Made by a program: the position numbers and the translations under genes. Below, one piece after another: positions 37,023 through 60,300 of a stretch of 64,000 bases of DNA. Numbering within the stretch: the first letter of the stretch is position 1; each line of letters opens with the position of its first letter. This stretch comes from Bacteroidota bacterium (lineage in GTDB: Bacteria; Bacteroidota; JABWAT01), in contig JABWAT010000003.1 of NCBI GenBank assembly GCA_013360915.1, positions 62,001-126,000 on the forward strand, read 5' to 3'. Below the pieces are notes generated by a model. That model worked only from the letters and a program-made list of their open reading frames with translations, was not told the origin of the DNA and searched no databases.

Positions 37023-38026
37023 AGTAAGGCTCCGTTCAGTCGGATATGTTCCGCTTTTCTTGAAAAATTCTCTTTTGCAGCTGCCAGCGCAGCCAGATTC
37101 AGCGCCTTGATCGCCGATGATTTCACCTGCTGAGTCCGGACCAGTCCGGCCGAAAAGACCGGACCGAACACATGTCCGCAGCCTGCAGACTGCTGATCGG
37201 GATGAACGGCGGGAGGTCTCAGAATCAGGCTTTGAATCTGACCCAGAATCCGTTCCCAGATTACCACACCCCGGCTTCCGCGGGTTACCACCATAAAACG
37301 GGCTTTCCCTTCAAGAAGGGCCATCCGGATCAGTCCTTTTTCTGTGGTTCCGGCCGAAAAGAACAATTGCTGAAGTTCACGCTGATTCACCTGAATGGCA
37401 TCCACCGAATCAAACAATGTTTGCAGATCCTCCTTCACACGGTCCTCTCCCAGACGGGACCGTTTGAAAAACGAGCCCGGCAGCATTTGCAGATCGGCAT
37501 AAATGAAGGCCGACGGATAGTAGGCCCTGATCTGTTTCAAATCGCTGACCGACAAGTCCTGTGGGGTTTCCACTGACAGATAAATCAGATCAGTCTCCGC
37601 CGGAATGGAAAGCTCTATGGCCGGATCAGCCACTGTTACCGGCTCATCCAACCAATCCCCCGACTCCCATTTCCGGTGAATAAACCGGGTGGGAACCTCC
37701 GGGTGACTGTCCATGAAATCAAACCCCGTAAAGGGAAGATAGTCTTTCACCTGACTGATGGCCCGACGGGTTTCCTGATCGGCCGGGATCACCGGAACCA
37801 CCCGGTCTCCTGCTTTCAGAACCGAGTTAAATGCAAAGAGCGACAGCAGGGCAGAACCCGGTTCCGGAAGTCCCTCAGATACTGTTGTTGAATGGTTGAC
37901 CCAGGTCCACTGGCTTAATAAACTGATCAGCATTGTGTTAAGTCCGGCAAAAATAACCCCCTGTGAAACGATTTGGAATTGCCCGGCCACGAATTTGAAA
38001 CAACCCGATTTCCTTTTCGGGTTCAT
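37019..38026 (-). CDS. PfkB-like sugar kinase homologue with altered active site
   Basis: About 335 residues of the ribokinase/PfkB fold: an N-terminal strand VIFAGLNTML, a middle with DAIQVNQRELQQLF, then MVVTRGSRGVVIW and SAGCGHVFGPVFSAG. In active PfkB enzymes the last block reads GCGD, where D is the catalytic base. Here it is H (codon CAT, confirmed on the minus strand). The start is uncertain: ATG at 38026 or 37933, or a GTG between; the first strand of the fold needs residues before 37933. It may be a degenerate or re-purposed kinase. First gene of the run through serS and pyrF, and the neighbour of the oriC candidate. Confidence 0.65.
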   Translation of the reverse strand: MNPKRKSGCFKFVAGQFQIVSQGVIFAGLNTMLISLLSQWTWVNHSTTVSEGLPEPGSALLSLFAFNSVLKAGDRVVPVIPADQETRRAISQVKDYLPFTGFDFMDSHPEVPTRFIHRKWESGDWLDEPVTVADPAIELSIPAETDLIYLSVETPQDLSVSDLKQIRAYYPSAFIYADLQMLPGSFFKRSRLGEDRVKEDLQTLFDSVDAIQVNQRELQQLFFSAGTTEKGLIRMALLEGKARFMVVTRGSRGVVIWERILGQIQSLILRPPAVHPDQQSAGCGHVFGPVFSAGLVRTQQVKSSAIKALNLAALAAAKENFSRKAEHIRLNGALL

Positions 38027-38303
38027 TCGTGGTAAATTTACAGGTTGAAAACGCTGTGGATAACCTACGGAAAAAGCGTGAACACGATGTGGAAATCCGC
38101 CGGAATCCAAAGTGGGTTCCTCCGTACTGACCTGATCATCTGAATAACCCGCCCGGCCGGTGTGGATAAAAAACCGGACAATATGGGTTAAACAACCATC
38201 GGGACCGCCACCGGCTGGAGTTATCCACTTGTTAACAGCCCCAAGCGATAACATCAAACAGATTTTCAATCTTTATCTGTATATTGGAAGGACAACCTCA
38301 CCG
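38027..38303. other. Candidate chromosomal replication origin (oriC)
   Basis: Intergenic DNA between the divergent pfkB-like and dnaN genes. DnaA boxes (consensus TTWTNCACA): two perfect copies as TGTGGATAA at 38055-38063 and 38161-38169; one-mismatch copies TGTGGAAAT (38088-38096) and TTATCCACT (38221-38229). An AT-rich stretch follows (38250-38285, with TTTATCTGTATATT), a possible unwinding element. Genes to the left are mostly minus strand and genes to the right mostly plus strand, as expected for replication leaving this point both ways. Inferred; not tested. Confidence 0.7.
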
Positions 38304-39413
38304 ATGAAATTCAAGGTCAATTCCGGACTGCTTCTCAAAGCTCTCAACAAAGTCAACAGCGTTGTTCCTGCAAAAACCCCGCTTCCCATTCTCGAAAATA
38401 TCCTGTTCAAACTATCCGGAAACCGGCTAAGCCTGTCAGCTACTGACCTGGAAGTTTCCATGCTGACTGAAATTGCAGTCACCGGTGAAAAGGATGGATT
38501 GGTAGCCATTCCCGCAAAACGACTGATTGACACACTGAAGGCCTTGCCCGATACCTCCCTTGCTTTTGACGTCAATGATCAGAATCAGATCACTTTCAGC
38601 ACCGACCGCGGAACGTATAAACTTTCTGGTGAAAATGGTCTCGATTTTCCGGCCATTGCCTCTATTTCAGGCGGAACCAGCATGTCCATTGACAGCAAGC
38701 AGCTGGCACGGATGATCAACCACACTCTTTTTGCTGTTTCTTCAGATGAACTGCGGCCGGCCATGATGGGCGTTTTGTTCCAGTTTCATGCCGACGAGTT
38801 CAAAACCGTGGCCACCGATGGTCACCGGCTGGTGGCCTTTTCCTTTAAAGGTCTCGCCATTGATGAACCAAGAACCATCATTGTTCCTTCAAAAGCCCTC
38901 AATATTCTGCTGAAGAACATTGAAGGTCCGACCATTCCGGTACGTGTGGATGACAAATTTGTCTCCTTTGAACTGGAAAGTGGTATTTTGGTTTCCCGTC
39001 TGATCAAGGAGAACTACCCGAATTACGAGGCGGTCATCCCATCAGAAAACAACCGTACTCTTGTGATTTCGAATGTGGAACTTAAATCGGCTGTTAAGCG
39101 GGTCTCGTTGTTTTCAAACTCAAGTACCCACCAGATCCGGTTTGCCATGTCGGATCAGCCTCTGAAAATCACAGGCGAAGATTACGATCAGGGCCGTTCG
39201 GCTGTTGAATCGGTTCCTTCTCTGTTCACCGGTGAATCACTCGAAATCGGATTTAATGCCAACTACATCCAGGATATTCTCGATCATATCGAAACCGATG
39301 AAGTTCGTTTTGAATTTTCGGGTCCCACCCGTGCTTCCGTTATCTTACCGGCAGAACAACTTGAAAATGAACACCTGCTCATGCTGGTCATGCCGGTACG
39401 GATCAATAACTGA
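38304..39413 (+). CDS. dnaN: DNA polymerase III beta subunit (sliding clamp)
   Basis: Ring-forming processivity factor (369 aa) with the usual three-domain repeat. The true start is the ATG at 38304 opening MKFKVNSGLLLKALNKV, which matches the family N-terminus; the open frame extends back to 38160 but that part covers a DnaA box and is not clamp-like. VATDGHRLVAF and the C-terminal VMPVRI, the hydrophobic pocket region, are recognisable. First gene of the plus-strand replication cluster; recF follows after six bases. Confidence 0.96.
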   Translation: MKFKVNSGLLLKALNKVNSVVPAKTPLPILENILFKLSGNRLSLSATDLEVSMLTEIAVTGEKDGLVAIPAKRLIDTLKALPDTSLAFDVNDQNQITFSTDRGTYKLSGENGLDFPAIASISGGTSMSIDSKQLARMINHTLFAVSSDELRPAMMGVLFQFHADEFKTVATDGHRLVAFSFKGLAIDEPRTIIVPSKALNILLKNIEGPTIPVRVDDKFVSFELESGILVSRLIKENYPNYEAVIPSENNRTLVISNVELKSAVKRVSLFSNSSTHQIRFAMSDQPLKITGEDYDQGRSAVESVPSLFTGESLEIGFNANYIQDILDHIETDEVRFEFSGPTRASVILPAEQLENEHLLMLVMPVRINN

Positions 39414-39419
39414 CCCTGA

Positions 39420-40529
39420 ATGTTTATCAGGCGACTGGAGGTCCGTACTTTCCGGAATCACCGCCAAACATCACTTGAATTCGATTCTCCTGTAAACCTG
39501 ATCGTTGGAAACAACGGTCAGGGAAAAACCAACCTTCTTGATGCCATTTACCTGTCGGCATTGACAAAATCCTTTCAGGTAAGTTCCGATCTGCACTGCA
39601 TCATGCACGGAGCGGACGGATATCTCGTCTCACAGGAAACAAACGATGAAGCCGGGCGGTCCTATCACATCCAGGTCCGCATGGACAGGCTGGAAGGAAA
39701 AACCTGCTTTCTTCACAAGGAACGGCTTCAGGGATCCTCAGACCTTATCGGGTTGATACCAACCGTACTTCTGACTCTGGAAGACCGGTTTATCACCATG
39801 GGAAGTCCGGCCGATCGCCGGAAATTCATCGACGGAATTCTCTATCAGGTTTCACCCGCCTATATCGATCATTCACGTAAGTACAGGCGTGCACTCAGAC
39901 AGCGGAATGATCTGCTCGTGTCGGGTTCAAGAAATACCCCTTCCTGGTCCGACCTGCTAGATTCCTGGACTGATGAACTGATCACCTACGCAGTTTCCAT
40001 TGTTTCCAGAAGGCTCGATCTGGTCAGAGAACTGAACGATCGTCTTGCATCCTTGTTTGAAGAAGACCTTTCCGGATTCGAAAAGCCAGAACTGAATTAC
40101 CTCTGTGAAGGAATCAGAGAACCGGATCCCGCTTCTCTCATCGATCAGTACCGATCGGTTTTCCGCGATCTGAAGGGTGAAGAGGCTGCGCGGCAGGTTA
40201 CGCTGGCTGGTCCGCACCGTGATGACATGGGAATAACCTTCAATGGACAGGATGTCCGGTATTTTGCTTCCCAGGGCCAGCACAAGCATCTGCTTCTCAT
40301 GCTTAAAATGGCTTCCTTTTTTTATCTGAAGGAGAAGAAGTCAGAAACTCCCCTCCTGTTGCTCGATGATATGTTTTCTGAACTGGATTCGTCACGGCTT
40401 TCTGTGTTCAGTCGGTTTCTCCCGCGGTTCGGACAGGTTTTTGTGACCATGACCAACCGTGAACTGCTTCCGGTTGATTCACCTTTTTCCATTTTCACCG
40501 TTTCAGAGGGTACAGTTACCAGACAATGA
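39420..40529 (+). CDS. recF: DNA replication/repair protein RecF
   Basis: SMC-like ATPase (369 aa) that helps load RecA at gaps. Walker A is GNNGQGKT (30-37). The ABC signature region holds VTLAGPHRDDM, and Walker B is LLLLDDMFSELDSSRL. Normal length and ends. Its stop overlaps the start of the DUF721 gene (ATGA), so translation is coupled. Confidence 0.96.
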   Translation: MFIRRLEVRTFRNHRQTSLEFDSPVNLIVGNNGQGKTNLLDAIYLSALTKSFQVSSDLHCIMHGADGYLVSQETNDEAGRSYHIQVRMDRLEGKTCFLHKERLQGSSDLIGLIPTVLLTLEDRFITMGSPADRRKFIDGILYQVSPAYIDHSRKYRRALRQRNDLLVSGSRNTPSWSDLLDSWTDELITYAVSIVSRRLDLVRELNDRLASLFEEDLSGFEKPELNYLCEGIREPDPASLIDQYRSVFRDLKGEEAARQVTLAGPHRDDMGITFNGQDVRYFASQGQHKHLLLMLKMASFFYLKEKKSETPLLLLDDMFSELDSSRLSVFSRFLPRFGQVFVTMTNRELLPVDSPFSIFTVSEGTVTRQ

Positions 40530-40822
40530 GATCACACATCGGAAAACTGTTTCATATAAGCGACTGGCTGAATTTGTTCCGCTCGGGAACCCGCGCCGGC
40601 CAGCACATGAAGAAGTACGATGTGATTGTTCAATGGGAATCGGTTGTTGGCCGGTCCATTGCGGCAGTGGCCAAACCGGAGCGGATTGAAAAGCACGTAC
40701 TTACCCTCCGCGTTCAGCATGCCGTCTGGCGGCAGGAACTGCTTTTCAGAAAGAATGAACTGATCGGACAGATCAACACATACTTCGGCGAAAACATTGT
40801 AAAAGATATCATTTTTCGGTAA
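40526..40822 (+). CDS. DUF721 protein, DciA-like helicase loader
   Basis: A 98-residue protein of the DUF721 family. The DciA members of this family load the replicative helicase in bacteria that lack DnaC or DnaI. Family features seen: VIVQWESVVGRSIAAVAKPERI, given by its key part WESVVG, followed by LTLRVQHAVWRQELLFRKNELI. The position between recF and gyrB agrees with a replication role. It is shorter than proteobacterial DciA and contains only the core domain. Confidence 0.85.
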   Translation: MRSHIGKLFHISDWLNLFRSGTRAGQHMKKYDVIVQWESVVGRSIAAVAKPERIEKHVLTLRVQHAVWRQELLFRKNELIGQINTYFGENIVKDIIFR

Positions 40823-40839: not shown

Positions 40840-42810
<1,971 letters not shown>

Positions 42811-42846
42811 CCCACCCATCTTATCAGAACTGATTGACTATTGATT

Positions 42847-45300
42847 ATGGCATCTAACGACCGTATACGACCAAACCAGATTGTCGAGGAAATGAAACTT
42901 TCCTACCTCGACTATTCCATGTCGGTAATTGTTTCAAGAGCGCTTCCCGATGTGAGGGACGGATTGAAACCTGTTCACCGCCGGGTTCTGTTCGGAATGA
43001 ATGAACTGAGCATGGGTGCGGGCAGGGCCTTTAAGAAGTCGGCCCGTCTGGTCGGAGAAGTGCTCGGTAAGTATCACCCGCATGGTGACAGTGCAGTTTA
43101 TGACTCTCTGGTACGGATGGCCCAGGAATTCTCCATGCGCTATCCCCTGGTCGATGGTCAGGGTAACTTTGGTTCGATCGATGGTGATGCCCCGGCGGCC
43201 ATGCGGTATACTGAAGTAAGAATGAAACGCATGGCAGAGGAAATGCTGCGGGATCTGGATAAGGAGACGGTTGATTTTCAATCCAACTTCGATGATTCGC
43301 TGGAAGAACCCAAAGTACTGCCCAGTGCCGTTCCAAATCTGTTGGTGAACGGATCTTCTGGAATTGCGGTCGGAATGGCCACCAATATTCCTCCTCATAA
43401 TCTGGGAGAAGTGGTGAATGCCCTTCTTGCCATGATCGACAATCCAGAAATAGAACTGCTCGATCTGATGGATCTGGTAAAGGCACCCGATTTTCCTACG
43501 GGTGGAATCATTTATGGGATGGCCGGTGTGCGTGAGGCGTACCGGAGCGGACGTGGCCGGTGTGTGATCCGGGCTAAAGCTTCCTTTGAAACCAAACCCA
43601 ATGGTCGCGAATCCATCATTATTCATGAAATTCCATTCATGACCAATAAGGCCTCCATCATTGAAAAGATTGCCGAACTGGTCAAGGATAAGAAAGTAGA
43701 AGGTATTTCCGATATCCGGGATGAATCGGACCGTGAAGGGATGCGCGTGGTTATCGATCTTAAGAAAGATGCCATGGGAACGGTCGTCCTGAATCAATTG
43801 TATAAATACACCCAGTTGCAGAATACGTTTGGTATCATCATGCTGGCACTGGTTGGAGGCATTCCAAGGGTGCTCAGTCTGAAAGAGGTGCTTCGTCACT
43901 ACCTCGATCACCGGATGGATGTGGTGATTCGTCGCACCCGTTTTGAACTGAAGCAGGCCGAGGCACGTGCCCATATTCTGGAAGGTCTGAAAATTGCGCT
44001 GGATCATCTGGATGAAGTGATCAGCCTGATCCGCTCCTCACCCGATACCGAAACTGCACAATCTGGTCTGATGACCAACTTTGGTCTGAGTGAAATTCAG
44101 GCAAAAGCCATTCTGGAAATGAGATTACAAAGACTTACCGGTCTTGAACGCCAGAAAATTGAGGATGAATATCAGGAACTCCTTAAACTGATCGAAAAAT
44201 TACGTTCAATTCTCGATTCTGAACTCCTGAGACTTCAAATTATCCGCGAAGAGCTTAATGAAGTTCGTGAAAAGTATGCCGATGAACGCCGAAGTGAGAT
44301 TGTTCAGGCTGATGATGAAATAGATATGGAAGATCTGATCGCTGATGATCAGGTGGTGGTGACCCTTTCCAATCAGGGCTTTATCAAGCGGGTTGCTATC
44401 GGAGAGTACCGGGCTCAGGGACGCGGAGGTCGCGGAATCACCGCCGCTGCTATCGGCGATGATGATTACATGGCCCACATGATGGCGACAACCAATCATC
44501 AGTGGCTGATGTTTTTCACCAACCTTGGCCGGTGTTACTGGTTAAAAACCTGGGTGATTCCAGAGGGCAGCCGCCAAAGCCGCGGCCGTTCCATTGCAAA
44601 CCTGCTCAATATGTTACCCGGAGAGAAGGTTGCTGCATTTATTGCCGTTCGCGGATTCGATCAGGGTGGCTTTATCATGAAGTGTACCCGCAAGGGAATT
44701 GTGAAGAAAACCGAGCTCGAAGCTTACAGCAATGTCAGAAAGGGCGGGATCATTGCAGTTAACATCCGCGAGGATGATGAACTGATCGAAGCCAGGCTGA
44801 CCTCAGGTACCGATCAGGTGATTCTGGGATCACGCTTTGGAAAGTCGATCCGTTTTGAAGAATCAGATGTGCGTGACATGGGCAGAAATGCCACCGGTGT
44901 GAAAGGAATGACACTCGAGGACGGAGATGAGGTGGTCGGTATGGTAACCACCGGCAGTCCCGATATTTCACTGCTGGTTGTGACCGAAAAAGGACTGGGA
45001 AAACGGTCCCCACTCGATGAATACCGTGTCCAGACCCGGGGAGGAAAGGGAATCCTGACCGTCAAGACCACCGATAAGAATGGAAAAATGGTCGCCATCC
45101 GCGAAGTGGATGATACCAAGGATCTGATGATTATCACCACTCAGGGGACCATCATCAGGCAGGCCTGTTCAGAATTACGAGATATGGGACGGAATACCCA
45201 GGGTGTGCGGCTTATTCGTCTGAACGAAGGCGACACCATTGCTGCGGTTGAAGTCGTTGATCATGAAGAATTGATAGATGATCAAACCCCCTCCGCTTAA
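42847..45300 (+). CDS. gyrA: DNA gyrase subunit A
   Basis: Cleavage subunit of gyrase (817 aa). Catalytic tyrosine Y121 in AMRYTEVRM. The quinolone-region stretch [18 protein letters not shown] keeps S82 and D86, equivalent to E. coli S83 and D87, the drug-sensitive state. The C-terminal wrapping domain has the GyrA box as QGRGGRG, which separates it from ParC. I use the ATG at 42847; a TTG at 42841 is also open. A strong terminator lies just after the stop, shared with convergent glnA. Confidence 0.96.
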
Positions 45301-47307: not shown

Positions 47308-47338
47308 CAAAAATATTAATAAAGTTATCGTTGATCAA
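47308..47338 (-). promoter_or_regulatory. Putative Bacteroidota-type promoter for lrp-glnA
   Basis: On the minus strand TTG (47338-47336), a 20-base spacer and TATTTTTG (47315-47308) match TTG-TAnnTTTG. The -7 element ends 13 bases before the ATG of the Lrp-like gene, so the leader would be very short. Confidence 0.5.
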
Positions 47339-47589
47339 GAATGCTGCTTAAAAAATTAAGGAAATAATCAGAAACCCTTAAAAAAATACTGATTTCGCAA
47401 TAAATATCAGGAAATCAAAGGACCAGCATGCATAACTCAGCAACGTGAAATTACGAAAAAAAGTAAGTCCAATGAACCTGTTATGTTAAAAAAGTTAATA
47501 AAAGGATAGATGAGTGTGGCTTTTTTCCCAACCAATCACAGTGGTCTACCTGAAGTCTGATGGCCCAGCAGAATGGCTCCTTCCCGGAA
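47339..47589. other. AT-rich non-coding stretch upstream of dnaA
   Basis: Part of the 548-base gene-free region between the lrp and dnaA start codons. It is rich in A and T with short A-runs. A 62-codon minus-strand frame at 47481-47669 does not look coding. I see no RNA gene and no perfect DnaA box in this part. Confidence 0.6.
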
Positions 47590-47752
47590 TGTGGAAAACT
47601 GGTGGAAAAACGACCGATCCTTGAGAATCTCGGGTAAAAAAGAGGATTGAAAAAGATAATATTCTGCATATAAATTATTTAAAAACAGTTACTTACAGAA
47701 ATTTTTGACAATGGGGAAAACTTTATCCGACCCTTCTCTTCAATGGGGATAA
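47590..47752. promoter_or_regulatory. DnaA-box-like cluster upstream of dnaA
   Basis: Sites close to TTWTNCACA: a perfect match as TGTGGAAAA (47590-47598), then one-mismatch copies GGTGGAAAA (47601-47609), TGGGGAAAA (47712-47720) and TGGGGATAA (47744-47752), all in the same orientation. An AT-rich stretch (47650-47705) lies between them. They may be autoregulatory sites for dnaA or a second part of a bipartite origin. Confidence 0.55.
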
Positions 47753-47756
47753 AATG

Positions 47757-47786
47757 TTGAAATTCGGTCGCTCTGCTCTAATTTTG
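47757..47786 (+). promoter_or_regulatory. Putative Bacteroidota-type promoter for dnaA
   Basis: TTG (47757-47759), a 19-base spacer and TAATTTTG (47779-47786) match TTG-TAnnTTTG. It ends 57 bases before the ATG at 47844 and lies inside the longer open frame, which argues that the frame's first 30 codons are not translated. Confidence 0.5.
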
Positions 47787-47843
47787 CTCCCCGGATTCAT
47801 ATCCGGTATTCGCTCGTTGATTTCTTTCCTTTACTCTGCCAAC

Positions 47844-49265
47844 ATGATCAGTATGGTTTATTCACCCGATGCGCGGGAAATCTGGAACAAGTGTCTGAAA
47901 GGCATCCGCAGTGATGTTTCTGCACAGGCGTTCAAAACCTGGTTTGAACCAATCACAGCTGTCAACCTGGTGGGTAACGAACTGATCATACAGGTTCCCA
48001 GTAAGTTTCATTATGAATGGCTGGAATCGAACTTTCTGAATACCATCCGGAAAAGCATTACCCACACACTGGGAGCCTCGGCAGTATTAAAGTATCAGAT
48101 TGCACAGGAAGATTCCGGACCCGATCCACTTCCCGATCCGGTTCGCACATCCGTTCAGCAGGAACCAACAGGCAAACGGCCGTCTTCTGCCGATAAGCCG
48201 GTCCGTCCGGAGGCCCCTGCTGTGGGTGACTCGATCGATTCCAATCTCAATCCACGCCACACTTTTGATTCTTTCATCAAGGGAGACAGCAATCAACTGG
48301 CAAGGGCGGCCGCCTTTGCCGTTTCAGATAACCCAGGTGGCAACAGTTTCAATCCACTCTTTATATATGGAGGGGTTGGACTGGGCAAGACCCACTTGCT
48401 GCAAGCCATCGGTAACCGGGTTAAACACCATAAACCTAATAAGAAGGTGGTTTACCTGTCCTCTGAACGGTTCACAATAGATTTTGTGAATGCCATTCAG
48501 AACAACCGGGTGAGTGAGTTTACAACCTTCTACAGGGGGGTTGATCTGCTTCTGATGGATGATGTTCAGTTTTTTTCGGGTAAGGAAAAAACCCAGGAAG
48601 AATTCTTCCACATCTTTAATACCCTTCATCAAAGCGGACGGCAGATCGTTCTGACCAGTGACCGGCCGCCAAAGGACATGAAGTTTTTTGAAGAACGGTT
48701 ACTCAGCCGGTTTCAATGGGGACTGGCAGCCGACATTCAACCGCCTGACCTCGAGACCCGTATCGCGATTCTTCATCATAAAAGCCGTGAACAGGATTTT
48801 ACCCTCGAACCGGAAATTATTGAATACATCGCCCTTAATGTCACCAACAATGTCAGACAACTGGAAGGATGTCTGGTAAAGTTAATTGCCCAATCAAGTC
48901 TCACCCATGCGACCATCACACTGGCCATGGCCCGGGATACCCTGCGTGATATTATCAAACCCTCAAAAATCAATTTGTCAATTGAGGCGATTCAGCGGAT
49001 TGTCAGTGAGTACTTCGGGATTCCTGATGACCTGCTCAGAGATTCAACCCGAAAACAGGAAATTGTTCGGGCCCGCCAGATTGCCATGTATCTGGCAAAA
49101 GAATTTACCCAATCCAGCCTGAAAACCATTGGTCTGCATTTCGGACGGCGTGATCATACCACCGTCATTCATGCCTGTGAGTCGGTGCAGAATCAGGCAG
49201 AAACAAACGATAAATACCGCCGGACGCTGGATGACATCCGCCGGAAAATTGAAATGAGTCTCTGA
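47844..49265 (+). CDS. dnaA: Chromosomal replication initiator protein DnaA
   Basis: AAA+ initiator (473 aa). Domain I begins IWNKCLKGIRSDVSAQAFKTW. Domain II is a short polar linker. Domain III has the P-loop GGVGLGKT (about 176-183) and Walker B LLLMDDVQFF. Domain IV carries the DNA-binding signature GRRDHTTVIHACESV. The open frame reaches back to 47754, but its hydrophobic leader is not DnaA-like and contains a promoter match; ATG 47844 (or 47853) is preferred. Unusually, dnaA is 9.5 kb from dnaN, separated by recF, gyrBA and lrp-glnA. The kinase gene starts directly after the stop. Confidence 0.95.
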   Translation: MISMVYSPDAREIWNKCLKGIRSDVSAQAFKTWFEPITAVNLVGNELIIQVPSKFHYEWLESNFLNTIRKSITHTLGASAVLKYQIAQEDSGPDPLPDPVRTSVQQEPTGKRPSSADKPVRPEAPAVGDSIDSNLNPRHTFDSFIKGDSNQLARAAAFAVSDNPGGNSFNPLFIYGGVGLGKTHLLQAIGNRVKHHKPNKKVVYLSSERFTIDFVNAIQNNRVSEFTTFYRGVDLLLMDDVQFFSGKEKTQEEFFHIFNTLHQSGRQIVLTSDRPPKDMKFFEERLLSRFQWGLAADIQPPDLETRIAILHHKSREQDFTLEPEIIEYIALNVTNNVRQLEGCLVKLIAQSSLTHATITLAMARDTLRDIIKPSKINLSIEAIQRIVSEYFGIPDDLLRDSTRKQEIVRARQIAMYLAKEFTQSSLKTIGLHFGRRDHTTVIHACESVQNQAETNDKYRRTLDDIRRKIEMSL

Positions 49266-49901
49266 GTGGCAGGCAACAGGCGCTTTTTTATTGGCATTGC
49301 AGGAAGCATCGGGTCGGGCAAATCATCGATTACCACGTTGCTGGCAAAACAGTACGGTTTCCGTCCTTTTTTCGAATCGGTGGATGACAATCCCTATCTC
49401 GAAGATTTCTACAATGACATGTCGAGATGGTCGTTCCATCTTCAGATTTACTTTCTATCCTCCCGTTTTCGTCAGCAGAATCAGCTGGCAGGGTCAAAAG
49501 AGTCCATCATCATGGATCGGACCATCTATGAGGACGCAGAAATCTTTGCCAGAAACCTGTATGAAATCGGCAAGATGGATGAGCGGGATTATCAGAATTA
49601 TCTGGCAATATACAGAGAAATGACCTCCTTTCTCGAGATTCCCGATCTGCTGGTTTATCTGAGGGCCTCGGTTCCAACCCTGGTCAGGCAGATACAGAAA
49701 CGGGGTAGGGACTACGAATCGGCGATCTCTATCGACTACCTCAACCGATTGAATTCATTGTATGAAGACTGGATTGCCCGGTACTCCATGGGGCCCAAGC
49801 TGATCATTGAAACAGATGATCTCGACTTTGTGAACCGGGCCGAAGATTTTGGAGTTGTACTTCAGATGATAGACCGCCGCCTGAACAATCTGTTTGGATG
49901 A
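49266..49901 (+). CDS. Deoxynucleoside kinase
   Basis: A 211-residue deoxyadenosine/deoxyguanosine-type kinase that salvages deoxynucleosides to monophosphates. P-loop GIAGSIGSGKSS near the N-terminus, then EDFYNDMSRWSFHLQIYFLSSRF, given by key part MSRWSFHLQ, and MDRTIYEDAEIFA with the DR(S/T) catalytic motif. The lid region has RGRDYESAI. It begins with GTG directly after the dnaA stop codon, so the two are almost certainly one transcript. Which deoxynucleoside it prefers is not evident. Confidence 0.9.
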   Translation: MAGNRRFFIGIAGSIGSGKSSITTLLAKQYGFRPFFESVDDNPYLEDFYNDMSRWSFHLQIYFLSSRFRQQNQLAGSKESIIMDRTIYEDAEIFARNLYEIGKMDERDYQNYLAIYREMTSFLEIPDLLVYLRASVPTLVRQIQKRGRDYESAISIDYLNRLNSLYEDWIARYSMGPKLIIETDDLDFVNRAEDFGVVLQMIDRRLNNLFG

Positions 49902-49913
49902 ATGCACTCAGAC

Positions 49914-49944
49914 TTGCATCAGGATAGATAAAAATCTAAATTTG
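49914..49944 (+). promoter_or_regulatory. Putative Bacteroidota-type promoter for rpmH-rnpA
   Basis: TTG (49914-49916), a 20-base spacer and TAAATTTG (49937-49944) match TTG-TAnnTTTG. It ends 36 bases before the rpmH ATG in a 79-base intergenic gap. Confidence 0.55.
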
Positions 49945-49980
49945 CGGTTCTTTAAAATTTAATGGTGGGGACCTTTAGTT

Positions 49981-50127
49981 ATGAAACGGACTTTTCAGCC
50001 AAGTAACCGGAAGCGTAAAAACAAGCATGGATTCCGGTCACGGATGGCCTCAAAAAATGGTCGGTTGGTGTTGAAGCGCCGGCGTGCAAAAGGAAGAAAG
50101 CGTCTGACCGTCAGCGATTCGTTCTGA
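49981..50127 (+). CDS. rpmH: Large ribosomal subunit protein bL34
   Basis: A 48-residue, very basic protein beginning [20 protein letters not shown] and containing [19 protein letters not shown], the unmistakable bL34 signature. It binds 23S rRNA in the 50S subunit. The rnpA gene begins nine bases after its stop, the usual pairing near dnaA. Confidence 0.97.
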
Positions 50128-50136
50128 TTTATCTGA

Positions 50137-50562
50137 GTGCCTGAAGCCAGGGAGTCAAAGGGACTCTACCGCTCACGGGTAATCAGAGGAAAAGACCGGT
50201 TAACGGCCATTTATGAAAATGGATCCGTCTTCCGGTCCTCATCAGTCCTGGTCCGGTTCCTGTTAGAACCCAACCGGTATCAGCCACAGGAACCCGTTCA
50301 GGTGGCATTTACCATCTCTCGCCGGGTTGGCAATGCGGTCCGGAGAAACCAGATCCGCAGATGGATGCGCGAGTCCATCCGGCTCCGGTTTTCTGAGCTG
50401 CAGCGGATTCCCGTTCCTGTGGACAATACCCTGTCAATTGTACTTTCCTACCGGAGTGTGACAGGTACCAGTCCCGGATGGAAAGAAATTCAATCATCGG
50501 TAGAATCGGTTGTGGGCCGTCTGGTGGCACTTGGTGAAAAAGGTTTTTCTGCTCGTCATTAA
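50137..50562 (+). CDS. rnpA: Ribonuclease P protein component
   Basis: Protein subunit of RNase P (141 aa), which binds the tRNA 5' leader. The RNR signature is [18 protein letters not shown] (62-79). Starts at a GTG at 50137. The C-terminus overlaps yidD by 29 bases. The RNA partner gene (rnpB) is not in the window. Confidence 0.93.
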
Positions 50563-50743
50563 AGGATACCAGGCAATTATATCGCCATGGCTTCCTGCTT
50601 CCTGTCGGTTTGTTCCCACCTGTTCAGTTTACACGAGTCTTGCAATTGAGAAATACGGTGCCTGGAAAGGAAGTCTGCTGGGCTTCAGGCGAATCCTGAA
50701 ATGCCATCCTTTCCATCCCGGAGGTTTTGACCCCCTTCCCTGA
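50534..50743 (+). CDS. yidD: Membrane protein insertion efficiency factor YidD
   Basis: A 69-residue protein with the family core [20 protein letters not shown] and [12 protein letters not shown]. It assists YidC-dependent insertion at the inner membrane. The start is taken as GTG 50534 (the preceding TTG is also possible); the first codons overlap rnpA in another frame. yidC starts 12 bases downstream. Confidence 0.93.
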
Positions 50744-50755
50744 TCTTGGAGATTT

Positions 50756-52486
50756 ATGGATCGTCAACAAGTTATTGGTCTGGTTTTAATTACCGTCATC
50801 TTCATCGGTTGGTTTTACTGGTCCTATGAACAGCAAAGGGACTATGTCAGCCGGACTCCGGCTCAGGTTACCGATTCCACGGTTGTGGCTGAACAGAAAC
50901 CGGTTCAGATCCAACCCGAGCAACCCCAAACCAACCAGGTAACCACCGATACCAGCCGGTTTGTACCTGTGACTGGCCCGGAGACGCTGACAGTGATCAC
51001 CAAAGAGTACACTGCCAAATTGTCCCGGGATGGCGCACGTCTGACCAGCTTTAAAGTCAACCACTATCTCGAAAACGGGTCTCCCGCTGAATTGCTTCCG
51101 GGCGGAGCAGGTCACGGACTGAATTATCAGCTGCAACTGGCTGATGGCGCTTTGCTGCAAACTCAATCCCTGACTTTTCAGGTATCGGGAAGTGACAGCC
51201 TGTTTCAGCTGAATTCTCCAGGTGATTCGGTTACCATTCGCTTTGAATCTAAGACTCGTGCCGGGGAAATCATCGGAATGGTGTATCGTTTCTATGGTTC
51301 CGGCTTCAGAATCGGACATCAGCTCTACCTGAGCGGATGGCAGAATGGGCTTGCGGCACAACAGATCCAACTGCAATGGAAAGATGGACTTCGCCTGACC
51401 GAACCTGATAAAACTGTGGAAGCTTCTTCGGCAGAGGCCATGTTCAGATCAGACGAAGACAATGACTATCTGAATGCCACCGCCACCGATGAAGATGAAG
51501 AACTCATCTATCCCAAAGCGTTTAACTGGTCTTCTATCAGAACCAAATACTTCGCTGTGGCCATTCTGAATACCGATCAGAAGGCTGGCTCCGTGCGGCT
51601 GACCGGCCGAACTTATAATGACAAGAACGGTCACCCCGAGGAAAAGTATACCATGGTTCACTTTTTCTCCTATCAGCGTGAATCCTACTTCAGTAAAACC
51701 TCGACCATTTTCCTGACGCCGCTTGATTACTATTACCTGAAGGGACTGGATCTTGAACTTCACAACATCATGTCTCTGGGTTTACCTTATCTGGTAAAGC
51801 CGATTTCTGAATATTTCATTTTACCGCTATTTATCTTCCTTCATGACTGGATTCCTTCCTGGGGTCTTGTCATCATCGTCTTTACTATCCTGATCAAAAT
51901 TCTCCTTTATCCACTGACCGAAAGTCAGACAGCCGGATTTAAAAAAATGGCTGAAGTGGCTCCTAAAATGAAGGAAATACAGGATAAGTACTCCAACGAT
52001 AAGGAGCGAATGCAGCAGGAAATGCTGAAATTGTACCGTGAACACGGGTACAATCCGCTGGGAGGCTGTCTGCCACTGCTTCTGCAAATGCCCATTCTGT
52101 TTGCGCTCTATATCGTCTTCGCAAATGCCATCGAGTTTCGTCAGGCTGAATTCCTCTGGATTTCGGATCTGAGTCTGCCCGATGTTCTGGTGCCATTGCC
52201 ATTCCATATTCCGATTTATGGTGCTCATATCTCCTTGTTTGCTTTGCTGGTCGCTTGTTCACAAATCTGGCAAATGAAACTTCAGCCCCAGACAAACAAG
52301 GAACAGGCTGCCATTATGATGTGGGTATTTCCGATCATGATGTTATTGATATTCAATAACTTATCCTCTGGTCTGAACATGTACTACTTCCTGTTTAACC
52401 TGCTGACGATCGCACAAACCTGGTTCTTCAACCGTCGTCAATCCAGCTTGCTGGAATCAGGAGCCTCTGATAAAAAACCAGGATGA
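50756..52486 (+). CDS. yidC: Membrane protein insertase YidC
   Basis: An Oxa1-family insertase (576 aa) with an N-terminal helix (VIGLVLITVIFIGWFYWSY), a large periplasmic domain (about 60-340) with beta strands, and five C-terminal helices starting at GLVIIVFTILIKILLYPLTE. The cytoplasmic hairpin PKMKEIQDKYSNDKERMQQE and NPLGGCLPLLLQMPILFAL are the family's functional blocks. Its stop overlaps the mnmE start by four bases. Confidence 0.96.
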   Translation: MDRQQVIGLVLITVIFIGWFYWSYEQQRDYVSRTPAQVTDSTVVAEQKPVQIQPEQPQTNQVTTDTSRFVPVTGPETLTVITKEYTAKLSRDGARLTSFKVNHYLENGSPAELLPGGAGHGLNYQLQLADGALLQTQSLTFQVSGSDSLFQLNSPGDSVTIRFESKTRAGEIIGMVYRFYGSGFRIGHQLYLSGWQNGLAAQQIQLQWKDGLRLTEPDKTVEASSAEAMFRSDEDNDYLNATATDEDEELIYPKAFNWSSIRTKYFAVAILNTDQKAGSVRLTGRTYNDKNGHPEEKYTMVHFFSYQRESYFSKTSTIFLTPLDYYYLKGLDLELHNIMSLGLPYLVKPISEYFILPLFIFLHDWIPSWGLVIIVFTILIKILLYPLTESQTAGFKKMAEVAPKMKEIQDKYSNDKERMQQEMLKLYREHGYNPLGGCLPLLLQMPILFALYIVFANAIEFRQAEFLWISDLSLPDVLVPLPFHIPIYGAHISLFALLVACSQIWQMKLQPQTNKEQAAIMMWVFPIMMLLIFNNLSSGLNMYYFLFNLLTIAQTWFFNRRQSSLLESGASDKKPG

Positions 52487-53844
52487 GACCCACCGATGAT
52501 CTGATTGCAGCACTGGCCACACCACCGGGTTATGCCGGCCTGGCTGTGATCAGAGTATCGGGACCTGGTTCCATCGAAAAGGTGGCTGGCTTTCTTACCC
52601 AGCCTGGTCTTGAAAAAGCTGCAGGTAACACCCTTCATTATTCAAAATTCGCCGGCCACGATAAACAGATCATTGATGAGGTGATCTGCGCCGTTTTCCG
52701 TTCCCCCAAAAGTTTTACCACCGAGGATACAGTTGAAATTTCCTGCCATGGGGGACCTGTCCTGTATCAGGCTATTCTCCAGGAATTGTTTAGATCAGGA
52801 GTCCGGCCGGCTGACCCGGGTGAGTTCACCCAACGTGCTTACCTCAATGGCCGGATTGATCTGGCCCAGGCCGAGGCCATCGCCGATCTGATTCATTCAT
52901 CCACCCAACTGTCTCGTCAGGCATCGCTGTATCAACTTTCAGGATCCTATTCAAAAAAGCTGGCCTCTCTGAGAGCTCAGCTGATTCATCTCATTTCTCT
53001 TCTTGAACTCGAATTGGATTTTTCAGAGGAGGATGTTGAGTTTGCTTCGCGGGAGGATCTGCTTTCCAGAATTGATGATACCACCGCTTATCTTTCCAAT
53101 CTGATGGAAAGTTATCTGGTCGGACGGATCATCCGTGATGGGATCCGGCTGGTCATCGCCGGGAAACCCAATGCCGGCAAATCGACGTTATTGAACACAC
53201 TGACCGGCGAGGATCGGGCTATTGTGACGGACATACCAGGAACCACACGGGATACACTCGATGTGCAGCTCTCACTGGGTGGTCTTCGGTTTATTGTAAC
53301 GGACACAGCTGGCTTAAGAGAAACCACTGACATTGTTGAACGTCTTGGCGTGGAACGGACCCATGAGGCAATCCGGCAGGCGGCTGTTCTGATCTATCTG
53401 ATCGACAACGGAGTCGGTCCGGATGAAAATGAGCGGGCTTTTATAAATCAGTTGAAGCAGGACCATCCGCAGATGTCCGTTTTAGTGGTGGCCAGCAAGA
53501 GTGATCAGCCAGGGGCGATTCTCTTTGACCGGGATTGTCAGATCAGCGCACGAACGGGAGAGGGAATGGAAGTGCTTACCTCTCTTCTGATCAGGACGGC
53601 CACCGGAGATCGTCCGCTGGATGCTGCGGCTGAATCGGTAACCAATGCCCGTCACTTTCATGCCATGGAAGCAGCCAGCCGCCATCTGACCGAAGCAAAG
53701 CATGCCATTCAAATGTCGGTCAGTCCGGACTTTATATCTGCGGATATCCGTCGGGCGATCAACTGTATCGGAGAGATCACCGGCGAGGTGACAACAGATG
53801 AGATTCTTGGTCATATCTTTTCGTCGTTTTGTATAGGGAAGTAA
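52483..53844 (+). CDS. mnmE: tRNA modification GTPase MnmE
   Basis: Partner of MnmG in making 5-carboxymethylaminomethyl-uridine at the tRNA wobble position (453 aa). N-terminal folate-binding domain (ATPPGYAGLAVIRVSG). G domain with GKPNAGKS (227-234), DIPGTTRD, DTAG (274-277) and ASKSDQ in place of the usual NKxD. The C-terminus ends FSSFCIGK, the conserved CIGK tail holding the catalytic cysteine. Overlaps yidC by 4 bases. Confidence 0.96.
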   Translation: MRPTDDLIAALATPPGYAGLAVIRVSGPGSIEKVAGFLTQPGLEKAAGNTLHYSKFAGHDKQIIDEVICAVFRSPKSFTTEDTVEISCHGGPVLYQAILQELFRSGVRPADPGEFTQRAYLNGRIDLAQAEAIADLIHSSTQLSRQASLYQLSGSYSKKLASLRAQLIHLISLLELELDFSEEDVEFASREDLLSRIDDTTAYLSNLMESYLVGRIIRDGIRLVIAGKPNAGKSTLLNTLTGEDRAIVTDIPGTTRDTLDVQLSLGGLRFIVTDTAGLRETTDIVERLGVERTHEAIRQAAVLIYLIDNGVGPDENERAFINQLKQDHPQMSVLVVASKSDQPGAILFDRDCQISARTGEGMEVLTSLLIRTATGDRPLDAAAESVTNARHFHAMEAASRHLTEAKHAIQMSVSPDFISADIRRAINCIGEITGEVTTDEILGHIFSSFCIGK

Positions 53845-53849
53845 GCAGG

Positions 53850-55727
53850 GTGTTTGTAGTAGACGAAACTTACGATGTCATTGTAGTTGGCGGAGGCCAT
53901 GCCGGTTGTGAGGCAGCCTGGGCTTCAGCCAGAATGGGTTTGAACACCCTGATGGTAACCATGAATCTGAATACCATTGCTCAGATGTCCTGCAATCCGG
54001 CCATCGGAGGAACCGCCAAGGGTCATCTCGTCAGAGAAATCGATGCCCTGGGTGGTGTGATGGGCCGGGTCATTGATCAGACAGGAATTCAGTTCAGAAT
54101 GCTGAACCGCAGCAAAGGACCAGCGGTCTGGTCTCCGCGAGCCCAGGCAGATCGGACGGCCTACGCAATCACCATGAGAAAACTACTCGAAACGCTCCCC
54201 AGCCTTTCGTTCAGGCAGGATTCGGTTCATGATCTGATCATTGAGGACCGGCGGGTTACCGGTATCAGAACCACACTTGGAGTGACAATCCGAGCCCGGG
54301 CGGTTGTGCTGACGACGGGTACTTTCATGAACGGATTGATGCATATCGGATTAAAAAACCTGCACGGAGGCAGGAGTGGGGAAGCTTCGAGTACCGGCAT
54401 TACCGAGACTTTGGTGAATCATGGATTTGTCTTTGGCCGTCTGAAAACAGGCACTCCTCCCCGGATTGACAGCCGGTCAGTGGACTACAGCAAAGTCGAA
54501 GCTCAGCCCGGGGACACACCGCCCTCTCCCTTTTCATTCTATTCGTCGGGTATCACGCAGCCGCAAATCGACATGTACATGACGCGTACCACCGAGGAAA
54601 CCCATTCCGTTTTAAAAACCGGCTTTGATGAAAGTCCCATGTTTACCGGACGGATTCAGGGAATCGGTCCGCGTTACTGTCCGTCGATTGAGGACAAGAT
54701 CAATCGGTTTGCCGACAAAGAATCACATCAGTTGTTTCTGGAGCCGGAAGGAATCGGCACCAACGAAATGTATATCAATGGTTTCTCGACCTCCTTACCC
54801 GAACCGGTACAGTACCAGGCACTGCGCACCATTCCGGGTCTTGAGAAAGTGAAAATGATCAGACCGGGTTATGCCATCGAGTATGATTATTTTCCGCCGT
54901 ATCAGATTCGGGTCAGCACCGAAACAAAAACCATCAGGGGGCTTTTCTTCGCCGGTCAGATTAATGGTACCAGCGGATACGAAGAGGCTGCCGCCCAGGG
55001 ACTCGTGGCCGGAATCAACGCGGGTCTTTATTGCAGGAACGCAGACCCCTTCGTTCTGAAACGAAGTGAAGCCTACATGGGAGTGCTCATGGATGATCTG
55101 GTCAGCAAGGGGACCGACGAACCTTACCGGATGTTTACCAGCCGGGCCGAACACCGCATTGCTCTTCGTCAGGACAATGCAGATCGCCGGCTGATGGAAA
55201 TGGGATATCAGCTTGGACTGGTGGATGAGTGGAAGTACAAAAGAATGGTCTCCAAACGGACCTTCATTCAGGAACTATTTCAGCTTTCACAACGGATTGC
55301 CGTCACACCGGCACAGGTTAACACGTATCTGGAGCGGTGCGGATCCACTCCGATTGAACAAAAAGTGAAACTTTCCGACTTATTAAAGCGTCCGGAAGTC
55401 GATTTGGCGGAAATATCCTCTCAAGTTCAAGAAATACAAGTACTTATGACGAATTTCGACCATTCGGAAAGCTATTTGCCGGATGCTGAAATTGAGATAA
55501 AATACGAGGGCTATCTGAAGCGGGAATTGGAGCAGATTGAAAAGGTTCATCAGATGGATGGCTATCCCATTCCCGATAAAATGAACTATGATTCCATCAA
55601 ATCTCTGTCTACGGAAGGTCGCGAAAAACTGAAACGCATGAAACCAGAAACCATTGGTCAGGCCAGCCGGATACCGGGAGTGACCGCCTCTGATGTAAGT
55701 GTGTTGCTGATTTATCTGAGGCATTAA
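53850..55727 (+). CDS. mnmG: tRNA uridine 5-carboxymethylaminomethyl modification enzyme MnmG
   Basis: FAD-dependent partner of MnmE (about 625 aa). The FAD fold begins YDVIVVGGGHAGCEAAWASA. Downstream are CNPAIGGTAKGHLVREIDA, LNRSKGPAVWSPRAQ, LKTGTPPRID and the C-terminal helical domain. A TTG at 53829 is open but I prefer the GTG at 53850, which begins FVVDETYDVIV and lies just after the mnmE stop. Directly followed by rsmG with no gap. Confidence 0.96.
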   Translation: MFVVDETYDVIVVGGGHAGCEAAWASARMGLNTLMVTMNLNTIAQMSCNPAIGGTAKGHLVREIDALGGVMGRVIDQTGIQFRMLNRSKGPAVWSPRAQADRTAYAITMRKLLETLPSLSFRQDSVHDLIIEDRRVTGIRTTLGVTIRARAVVLTTGTFMNGLMHIGLKNLHGGRSGEASSTGITETLVNHGFVFGRLKTGTPPRIDSRSVDYSKVEAQPGDTPPSPFSFYSSGITQPQIDMYMTRTTEETHSVLKTGFDESPMFTGRIQGIGPRYCPSIEDKINRFADKESHQLFLEPEGIGTNEMYINGFSTSLPEPVQYQALRTIPGLEKVKMIRPGYAIEYDYFPPYQIRVSTETKTIRGLFFAGQINGTSGYEEAAAQGLVAGINAGLYCRNADPFVLKRSEAYMGVLMDDLVSKGTDEPYRMFTSRAEHRIALRQDNADRRLMEMGYQLGLVDEWKYKRMVSKRTFIQELFQLSQRIAVTPAQVNTYLERCGSTPIEQKVKLSDLLKRPEVDLAEISSQVQEIQVLMTNFDHSESYLPDAEIEIKYEGYLKRELEQIEKVHQMDGYPIPDKMNYDSIKSLSTEGREKLKRMKPETIGQASRIPGVTASDVSVLLIYLRH

Positions 55728-56432
55728 ATGGTTCCACGTGAAACGTTTTTACAATGGGCTGAATCAGAACGAAAGTGGCTGGAACTCTTTGCTGACCGTA
55801 ACCAGCTGTCCTTGACAGTTGAACAAGTGGATCAACTTCTTCGCTATGGCGCCGGACTCAGAGAAATCAATCAGATTCATAATCTGGTCTCGCGGAAGGA
55901 CGAAGAGGGAATCATCAGGCGCCATATCGCTCACGCTCTTACCATCCTGTATTATTGTACCATACCCGATGATGGTTCCCTGGCTGACTGGGGGAGCGGG
56001 GGAGGGATTCCCGGTATCCCCCTTTCCATTTGCCTGCCCCGACAATCGGTTGCACTGATCGACAGTATTCAGAAGAAATCAGATGCACAGCAGGAGATGA
56101 TTCAGTACCTGGGGTTAACCAATTGCAAAGCAATCCGTGGCCGGATTGAAGAGCTAGGAAGTCATTACCCAGCCAAGGTGGTGGTGGCCAGGGCTGTTGC
56201 AGATCTGACCGACTTATTTAAGTGGGGCAAGACGTGGATGGCCACCCAGACCCAACAGTTTATTCTGCTGAAGGGAACGACCTTCACCGAAGAGTTGAAA
56301 CAATTACCCATGGCATCGAAGCAATTGATTGAGGATATCCGACTTCATTCCATTGATCTGTTCGGACATGAAGAAATCGGAGAGAACAAACTCGTGGCTG
56401 AAATATGGATAAAAAAACACAAGATCAACTGA
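55728..56432 (+). CDS. rsmG: 16S rRNA (guanine-527-N7)-methyltransferase RsmG
   Basis: A 234-residue SAM-dependent methyltransferase. Typical blocks are INQIHNLVSRKDEEGIIRRH, given by key part HNLVSR, the SAM loop DWGSGGGIPGIPLSI, and VVVARAVADL. It starts immediately after mnmG. The first codons after ATG (VPRETF) are encoded by a parS-like palindrome. In many bacteria parA and parB follow rsmG; here murQ and mfd follow. Confidence 0.94.
   Translation: MVPRETFLQWAESERKWLELFADRNQLSLTVEQVDQLLRYGAGLREINQIHNLVSRKDEEGIIRRHIAHALTILYYCTIPDDGSLADWGSGGGIPGIPLSICLPRQSVALIDSIQKKSDAQQEMIQYLGLTNCKAIRGRIEELGSHYPAKVVVARAVADLTDLFKWGKTWMATQTQQFILLKGTTFTEELKQLPMASKQLIEDIRLHSIDLFGHEEIGENKLVAEIWIKKHKIN
55730..55745. 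other. parS site in the start of rsmG
   Basis: GGTTCCACGTGAAACG contains the full 14-base palindromic core GTTNCACGTGAAAC of the ParB-binding parS consensus TGTTNCACGTGAAACA; only the two outermost bases differ. It overlaps the rsmG start codon region. Confidence 0.85.
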
Positions 56433-57322: not shown

Positions 57323-60300
57323 ATCCGCTTCTATCCGATGTTTCACGTGAAACGATAAAGGCCATTGGTCCTGCAGTTGGGAATCAGGAAATCGGATTAC
57401 CCGAATCGTCTGCAGCAGCCTTTTACCTTCATCATCTGTATCTATCCGGAGAGGGAAGGCTTCTGGTTGTTGTTCCATCCGACAATCAGATACAGGCTTT
57501 CCGGGATGATTTGGAGAGCATCGATGCCAATCTGGTTGTGTTTCATTACGAAGAATTCAATTGGGAACGCGTCTATTCTGAAGAAAATGAGATACGCTTA
57601 CTGAGTGAGCGGGTTGAAACCCTGCGTTTATTACAGGAAACCAAACGGGCGATTATCTTTCTTTCTGCCCGTTCCCTGGTGCAGAAGGTCCCCCCACCAA
57701 AAGACTTTTTTACCAAACAGATCCAAATAAAGGCAGGAATGGTTCATTCATGGGAGCCGTTTCTGCAGAAACTGGAGGGTCTTTCGTATCAACGGGAAAC
57801 CATCGTAACCAGACCGGGAGACTATGCGGTAAGGGGCGGGTTGGTGGATGTGTTCAGTTTTGGTCAGGAAGCACCGGTCCGTATTGACTTCTTCGGGGAT
57901 GTGGTGGAGTCCATCCGCTTGTTCGATCCCAGGACACAATTAAGTCTGCAGCCCGTATCCACCACCACCATCTATCCGGGATACAGCCAGTCAAGAGGAT
58001 TGAAAAGTCAGGTGTGTTTGTTTGATTACCTCCAATCGGATGATCGGATTGCCTTTGTAAATGAAACCGATTGCCGGTCTTTGGTGGGAGAGGTAAAAAA
58101 GAGCGGAGGGATCGATGCCACGGGAACACCAGTCCAGGTGTCCTCCTGGGAGGAACTCGCTTCCTATTTTGATTTCTTTCCTGTTTTCCGGTTTCGCTGG
58201 CCGGTTGAACACCCCTCTGTGAAGGTACAATCGAGCCTTTCGGTTGGAGAAAAAACGTTCCAGGCCAGGGTGGCGGAATATGTACAAAGCGGATACCGGG
58301 TGCTGGTTTCTTATGATTTGCCCTCACAGGAAGAACGGATAAGGACGCTGCTGGCCGGACTTGGTCTGGAACAACGCGTAACGCTCGTTAAGCCTTCCTT
58401 TCATGAGGGCTTTGAACTGCCCGACAGTAAACTGTTGTTGCTGGCCGAACATCAGGTGTTCGACCGGTACCGGCGACCTTCAGCCCGTCATCAGATCAGA
58501 ATCAGAAATGAGTTTAAAATTCAGAATCTCTCAGAGATAAGACGGGGAGATTTTGTGGTCCATGAGGACCATGGGATTGGAAAATTCATTGGCCTGACGA
58601 AGATCCGTATCGGTGACCGGGAGAATGAGGTGATCCGTATCGAGTTTCAGAACAGGGATGTGCTGTTTCTGAATGTGAAAATGGTCGATAAAATCGCCCG
58701 GTACCGGTCAAGAGAAGCCGGGATCACCGAGCTGAATAAGCTGGGGGCTCCGGAATGGGAGCGAAAACGCCAGCAAACCAGAAACAAAATCAAAGAATAT
58801 GCCCGCGAACTGATCGGGTTGTATGCCAAACGGAAGCAAAGCAAAGGGTACTCGTTTGGTCCCCGAACGGCCTGGTCCGCTGAATTGGAAGCGTCTTTTA
58901 TGTATGAAGACACTCCCGATCAGGAAAAGGCATGGAAGGAAGTGGCCGCCGACATGGAGAACGAAAGTCCAATGGACAGGCTGATATGCGGGGATGTGGG
59001 TTTCGGAAAAACAGAAATCGCAGTACGTGCAGCCTTTAAAGCCGTACAGGATACCAAACAGGTGGCTGTGCTCGTTCCAACCACCATTCTGGCCGAACAA
59101 CATGTTCAGACCTTCAGGAAACGCATGAGTGCCTTTCCGGTCCGGGTGGATGTAATGTCCAGGTTCAGAACATCACGGGAACTGAAGGAAATTAAAGAGC
59201 AACTGGCAGCAGGAAAAATAGATATCATCATCGGGACGACCAGCCTGCTTGGAAGCGAAGTGGCCTTCAAGGACCTGGGGCTGCTGATTATCGATGAAGA
59301 GCATCGGTTCGGGGTCAAGGAAAAGGAACGGATTAAAAGTCTCAAAACGAACGTCGATATACTATCTCTCAGTGCGACACCCATTCCCCGGACCATGCAG
59401 CTGAGCATGATGGGGGCCCGGGATCTTTCCCTGATTGCAACTCCACCAGTGAACAGAAGACCGATCAGGGTATCGGTTGAACCGTTTGCCGAGGATAAAA
59501 TCAAAACCATCGTTCTGCAGGAACTGAACCGAGGCGGGCAGGTCTTCTTCATTCACAACCGGGTGAAAAGCATTTATGCCATGGCAAACTTTTTAAAACG
59601 GCTGCTTCCACGCATCCGGATTCAGGTGGCCCATGGAAAAATGACCGGCCGGGAGCTGGAAGACATCATGCATGCTTTTGTGAGCAGGGAAATCGACGTC
59701 CTTCTTTCCACCAATATTGTAGAAAGCGGAGTGGATATCCCCAACGCCAACACCATCATCATAAATCGTGCTGACCGGTTTGGCCTGGCTGAGCTGTATC
59801 AGTTGAAAGGTCGGGTGGGTCGTTCCACCACGCAGGGATACTGTTATCTGTTGATTCCACCTATGACTTTACTCAAAAAGGACTCCATTCGCCGGTTACT
59901 GACCATCGAGGAGTTTTCTGATCTTGGGAGCGGGTTCAATGTGGCGATGAGAGACCTGGATCTGCGCGGCAGCGGAAACATACTTGGAATGGAACAATCG
60001 GGATTTACTGAGACCATGGGATTAGAACTGTATCACCAGTTGCTGGAAGATGCAGTTGAAGAATTAAAAGATGAGGAATTTTCCGATTTGTTTGCCCGTC
60101 AACCCAAGCGATTGATTGTCAGAGAAGTGGTGGTTGAGTCATGGGTATCTGGTCAGCTCCCTGAAACCTATATTGACGAGCCAGCCCTTCGGTTTGATGT
60201 TTACAAGCGGCTTTCCCGTTCAACCCAACCAGAACAGATTTCAGAACTTGAAGCAGAAATGAATGACCGGTTTGGCCAGCCTCCCATTGAGGCAAAAGTA

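Follow-up and report, generated by a model that had tools for sequence, protein, structure and literature searches.

A probable replication origin beside dnaN, some 10 kb from dnaA, in a lineage of Bacteroidota

Where does chromosome replication start in a bacterium in which dnaA is not found in front of dnaN? This question is raised by a 64-kb stretch of DNA (the window) that represents positions 62001-126000 of contig C3 (204,839 bp) in a draft genome of the Bacteroidota (G000; 3.65 Mb, 51 contigs), whose DnaN is 76-77% identical to that of named relatives (Bacteroidetes MAGs). From 37 kb of the window onwards, the gene order is a pfkB-like gene (minus strand), an intergenic gap, dnaN (beta clamp; 38304-39413, plus strand, TIGR00663), recF (39420-40529, plus), dciA (replicative helicase operator of 98 aa; 40526-40822, plus, PF05258), gyrB (40864-42810, plus), gyrA (42841-45300, plus), glnA (minus), lrp/asnC (minus) and dnaA (47844-49265, plus, TIGR00362). 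The encoded DnaA is complete, and its domain IV matches 1j1v. The preliminary description of the window had placed dnaA 9.5 kb from dnaN, and the start coordinates bear this out. After dnaA follow genes for a deoxynucleoside kinase, rnpA, yidC, mnmE, mnmG, rsmG, a SIS-domain gene, mfd and mraZ. The block rnpA-yidC-mnmE-mnmG-rsmG (49266-56432) is therefore found 3' of dnaA on the same strand, behind the deoxynucleoside kinase gene; in many bacteria, this block lies on the opposite flank of dnaA and is directed away from the origin.

The gap between the pfkB-like gene (minus) and dnaN (plus) comprises 370 bases (37934-38303; the bounds depend on the start codons chosen, i.e., ATG at 37933 for the pfkB-like gene and at 38304 for dnaN) and lies 5' of dnaN-recF-dciA-gyrB-gyrA. 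On the evidence of its sequence, it is very probably the chromosomal replication origin (oriC), of the ordinary DnaA type. It contains two perfect DnaA boxes TTATCCACA on the minus strand (38055-38063 and 38161-38169), a weak box ATTTCCACA (38088-38096, minus, one mismatch to TTWTNCACA) and the box TTATCCACT (38221-38229, plus, one mismatch to TTATCCACA). The two perfect boxes and the span of 175 bases (38055-38229) agree with what had been noted previously, but the number of one-mismatch boxes, given there as two, depends on the consensus: there is one (38221) with the strict consensus TTATCCACA and three (38088, 38139, 38221) with the looser TTWTNCACA, so that the near-perfect boxes of the gap number one to three, in addition to the two perfect ones. 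This clustering exceeds chance, as the box score of the region was reached by none of 2000 Markov-shuffled copies and, in a separate shuffle test, by none of 1000. Furthermore, the 3' end of the box at 38221 is directed towards an adjoining AT-rich, easily melted element (38247-38296), which is the 50-bp stretch of lowest stability in the gap (dG -57.0 kcal/mol) and a candidate DNA unwinding element. Only 0.57% of the contig windows are equally unstable, in line with the AT-rich patch described earlier beside the boxes, although the element is milder than the gap before dnaA.

One feature counts against the oriC reading. In the available text of PMC8287927, a basal unwinding system consists of a DnaA box, a spacer (up to 16) and at least three DnaA-trios. 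With the motif as defined in that paper, no trios were found after the boxes of the G000 dnaN gap, which does not qualify as such a system by this definition; the three-trio matches in the relatives follow other boxes, not the one facing the AT-rich element. Note that the strand of the trios was deduced from the 3'-GAT-5' consensus.

The composition of the contig points to the same neighbourhood. The cumulative GC-skew minimum is located at C3:102152 (window 40152, inside recF), ~1.85 kb right of the dnaN start, and at C21:347698 in G003, C22:159206 in G001 and C42:37524 in G002; in every one of the four genomes, it is 1.5-1.9 kb to the right of the dnaN start. The first of these minima comes from a contig of a draft assembly, and the three relatives concur with it. 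A minimum at 47.6 kb or elsewhere had been named beforehand as the result that would speak against an origin at dnaN; the position at 40152 and the equivalent places in the relatives argue for it. The genes switch strand here as well, as had been claimed: according to a simple ORF caller, 12 of 15 ORFs are on the minus strand in the 20 kb left of the gap (31 of 43 in 50 kb), and 12 of 14 are on the plus strand in the 20 kb right of it (31 of 39 in 50 kb). No minus-to-plus switch was found on the other G000 contigs sampled: skew samples were negative on C1 (16 of 17, the first being +0.026), C5 (3/3) and C8 (3/3), and positive on C2 (8/8, from the first 370 of 620 kb), C6 (4/4) and C4 (1/1); the sample covered only a minor part of C4, very little of C7 and no contig beyond C8. 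A parS-like site TGTTTCACGTGAAACG is present at 57339-57354 (plus). Its exact core TGTTTCACGTGAAAC occurs once each in G000, G002 and G003 and twice in G001. All these copies are 18.1-19.7 kb to the right of dnaN, and the remainder of the four assemblies has none.

In the textbook arrangement, the origin would be the gap before dnaA (47311-47843), and the boxes before dnaN would merely regulate dnaN. A two-level skew fit with gene strand as covariate bears on this. Its change-point optimum relative to dnaN is +2.2 kb in G000, +1.8 kb in G003, +2.1 kb in G001 and about +15.5 kb in G002, where the contig is short and the fit poorly resolved. The loss against the optimum is 4.3, 1.7, 3.2 and 3.4 log units at dnaN (G000, G003, G001 and G002, respectively) and 7.2, 3.2, 5.7 and 3.9 at dnaA, so dnaN is favoured in each genome (by about 2.9, 1.6, 2.5 and 0.6 log units). 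The earlier statement that the switch falls exactly in the gap needs a qualification: the skew optimum lies outside the gap, ~2 kb right of the dnaN start, which counts against an exact placement. Four-fold-degenerate sites (training set: 344 genes on the leading and 167 on the lagging strand, all from other contigs) gave a flat curve over 38-51 kb, lowest after gyrA, which does not separate dnaN from dnaA and is compatible with an origin before dnaA; being too flat, this placing of the switch was dropped. Composition thus puts the origin within ~10 kb, at dnaN rather than dnaA, with modest resolution, and the box array gives the spot.

The gap before dnaA has further features expected of an origin. 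Its stability is below that of the dnaN gap in all four genomes, both gaps score 7 in G000 with the loose consensus, and it harbours DnaA sites on the minus strand (47590-47752: TTTTCCACA at 47590, TTTTCCCCA at 47712, TTATCCCCA at 47744), two of which align at a distance of 122 bp in all four genomes (TTTTCCACA and TTTTCCCCA, 47590/47712, in G000; a perfect TTATCCACA and TTATCAACA in G001-G003). However, with the strict consensus there are just two boxes per genome before dnaA versus 3, 6, 6 and 5 before dnaN, the cumulative skew minimum is 7-8 kb away, and the gene-strand switch falls at dnaN. Moreover, directly 3' of the DnaA sites there is a perfect match to TTG-N19-TAnnTTTG (47757-47786, plus), one of two in the window, which we take to be a promoter motif of the Bacteroidetes type. 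Such a promoter just 5' of dnaA would account for both the sites and the AT-richness as autoregulation. We consequently read these sites as a putative autoregulated dnaA promoter, which may have a second role in initiation, and regard the gap before dnaA as very unlikely to be the origin.

The array before dnaN is retained in the family, which is represented here by G000 and its relatives G001, G002 and G003 (two genera; the class, too, is represented here by these four genomes). The right-hand gene order is common to all three relatives, as seen from ORF sizes and strands, except for an extra ORF of ~132 aa after gyrA. Boxes with at most one mismatch to TTATCCACA number 3 (G000), 6 (G003), 6 (G002) and 5 (G001) within 300 bp before dnaN, and no other cluster scores higher than this one in any of the four stretches that were read (one per genome). 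The core of the array is a (-)/(+) pair of boxes, consisting in G000 of those at 38161 and 38221; the last (-)/(+) boxes are located at -143/-83, -150/-89, -150/-89 and -151/-90 relative to dnaN, i.e., 60, 61, 61 and 61 bp apart. An unstable stretch follows 3' of the pair in all four genomes, starting 57-69 bp before dnaN. MAFFT aligned the (+) box in all four genomes but not the (-) box of G000, and the spacing was therefore taken from coordinates. A search for perfect boxes alone overlooks the arrays of G002 and G003, since neither has a perfect box before dnaN. Blast of the G000 gap against the relatives gave no match in any of the three. Judged from these comparisons, the relatives have the plan of the array in common, not its sequence, and the numbers and positions of the boxes beyond the core pair vary. 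The nearby skew minimum and the conserved array together support the origin candidate of the preliminary description.

The dnaN gap is not the only dense box cluster on the contig. It ties as the densest one with a cluster between the divergent genes tatD and carB (C3:32135-32375). The latter lies outside the window (full extent C3:32074-32481). Genome-wide, G000 has 53 perfect boxes, of which three pairs are less than 300 bp apart, in the dnaN gap, between tatD and carB, and on C7; the C7 pair was rejected as an origin, as it sits in repetitive coding sequence. A box pair on C11 of G001 was likewise discarded, being within an ORF read by eye as leuB-like. The tatD-carB cluster is conserved, with a pair of perfect boxes at a distance of 208-210 bp in those three genomes in which it was read, a score equal or nearly equal to that of the dnaN gap and the 14-mer TGTGGATAACTTGT 318-325 bp before carB in all four family genomes. 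Nevertheless, there is no minus-to-plus skew switch at this place in G000 or G003, and its position relative to dnaN shifts from genome to genome (-68, +67, -30 and +84 kb), which makes the chance that it is the true origin practically negligible. Possibly, it is a datA/DARS-like or regulatory site. Two perfect boxes only 21 bp apart were also seen at contig ends in G003 (L089:9829-9858) and G002 (L090:7203-7232), just before an apparent rRNA operon promoter, as read by eye.

The tatD-carB cluster demonstrates that DnaA-box clusters do occur away from skew switches in G000. By analogy, the cluster before dnaN could regulate the dnaN operon or titrate DnaA, the origin being elsewhere within ~10 kb. 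We consider this very unlikely, as there is no other equally dense box cluster near the switch on the contig, and the gap between recF and gyrB was rejected as an origin because it codes for DciA, whose usual place is between these two genes according to the available part of PMC5109545. It is also highly improbable that the origin is bipartite, with a dnaA-upstream half that travelled with dnaA and a dnaN half that stayed, both acting across 9.5-10.2 kb through DnaA looping; in this case, the 122-bp pair before dnaA and the 60-61-bp pair before dnaN would be the two ends.

If the gap before dnaN is oriC, as we favour, DnaA encoded 9.5 kb away would bind the box array, and the (+) box at 38221 would point to the AT-rich element at 38247-38296, where the duplex would open. 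The helicase would then be loaded, presumably with DciA, whose gene is 2.2 kb away, and two forks would depart, which would explain the switch in strand and skew. In all four genomes, dnaA starts 9.5-10.2 kb downstream of dnaN and never directly before it as in a textbook oriC, and the split must therefore be old. We infer that dnaA, formerly in front of this site, moved away from dnaN in the lineage and that the origin remained with dnaN; the same applies to the binding of DnaA, the place where the duplex opens, the loading of the helicase and bidirectional firing.

The split itself had been regarded as a departure from the usual neighbourhood. It is real, but hardly peculiar within the phylum, where dnaA is directly before dnaN in just 28 of 60 genomes (9 of 24 families). 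In 13 genomes, four of which are the family described here, both genes share a contig but are separated or differ in strand (in G004, one of the 13, the distance is perhaps ~7 kb if the contig is circular), and in 19 they are on different contigs (including G030 and G050, which count neither way, as dnaN is ~135 bases or less from a contig end). The outgroup G054, in which dnaA immediately precedes dnaN, has its local skew minimum at 176674, 168 bp inside dnaN. The split genomes G008, G032, G042, G056 and G058, in which both genes are flanked, revealed no clear minus-to-plus switch at dnaN or dnaA; G007 had none at either gene, and G028 had a possible but ambiguous one at dnaN. An origin staying with dnaN is thus not a rule for the phylum. 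G004 possesses five DnaA boxes in less than 300 bp (C1:11561-11852, L183), ~10 kb from dnaA and close to where the skew changes sign; this cluster is a candidate for an origin at neither dnaA nor dnaN.

In Bacillus subtilis, the unwinding region incC sits between dnaA and dnaN. There too, several DnaA boxes adjoin the opening site (available text of PMC6669920), but the G000 gap has no clear DnaA-trios and no dnaA in front. In Melioribacter roseus (Ignavibacteria), the origin immediately precedes dnaN and coincides with a skew transition, as in G000, yet it lies between dnaA and dnaN, with dnaA still in front (PMC3534657, in the part available). The closest layout is that of cyanobacteria, whose oriC can be near dnaN without dnaA: as far as the accessible portions of PMC4674748 and PMC7198777 go, a box array and an AT-rich stretch adjoin dnaN in Synechococcus elongatus PCC 7942 and Cyanothece ATCC 51142, with dnaA apart, and the S. 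elongatus oriC is at the GC-skew shift. In G000, the array likewise adjoins dnaN with dnaA elsewhere, but the cyanobacterial boxes are mostly TTTTCCACA, whereas those of G000 are of the TTATCCACA type and dnaA is just 9.5 kb off. The resemblance is one of layout alone, and common descent is not claimed. Among Bacteroidetes, oriC is commonly far from dnaA, e.g., in Prevotella intermedia, where it does not adjoin dnaA either (PMC4755523, available text); unlike these dnaA-distant origins, that of G000 is linked to dnaN and less than 10 kb from dnaA.

The preliminary description was right in substance but slightly too exact on the switch. The split is not as unusual as it seemed at first. The concept of an origin is not changed by the finding. 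It provides a class-level lineage, represented here by four genomes, with an origin that can be put to the test, and a clean case of an origin that is with dnaN while dnaA is ~10 kb off. For the annotation of such chromosomes, it is a warning that base 1 should not be set at dnaA by habit.
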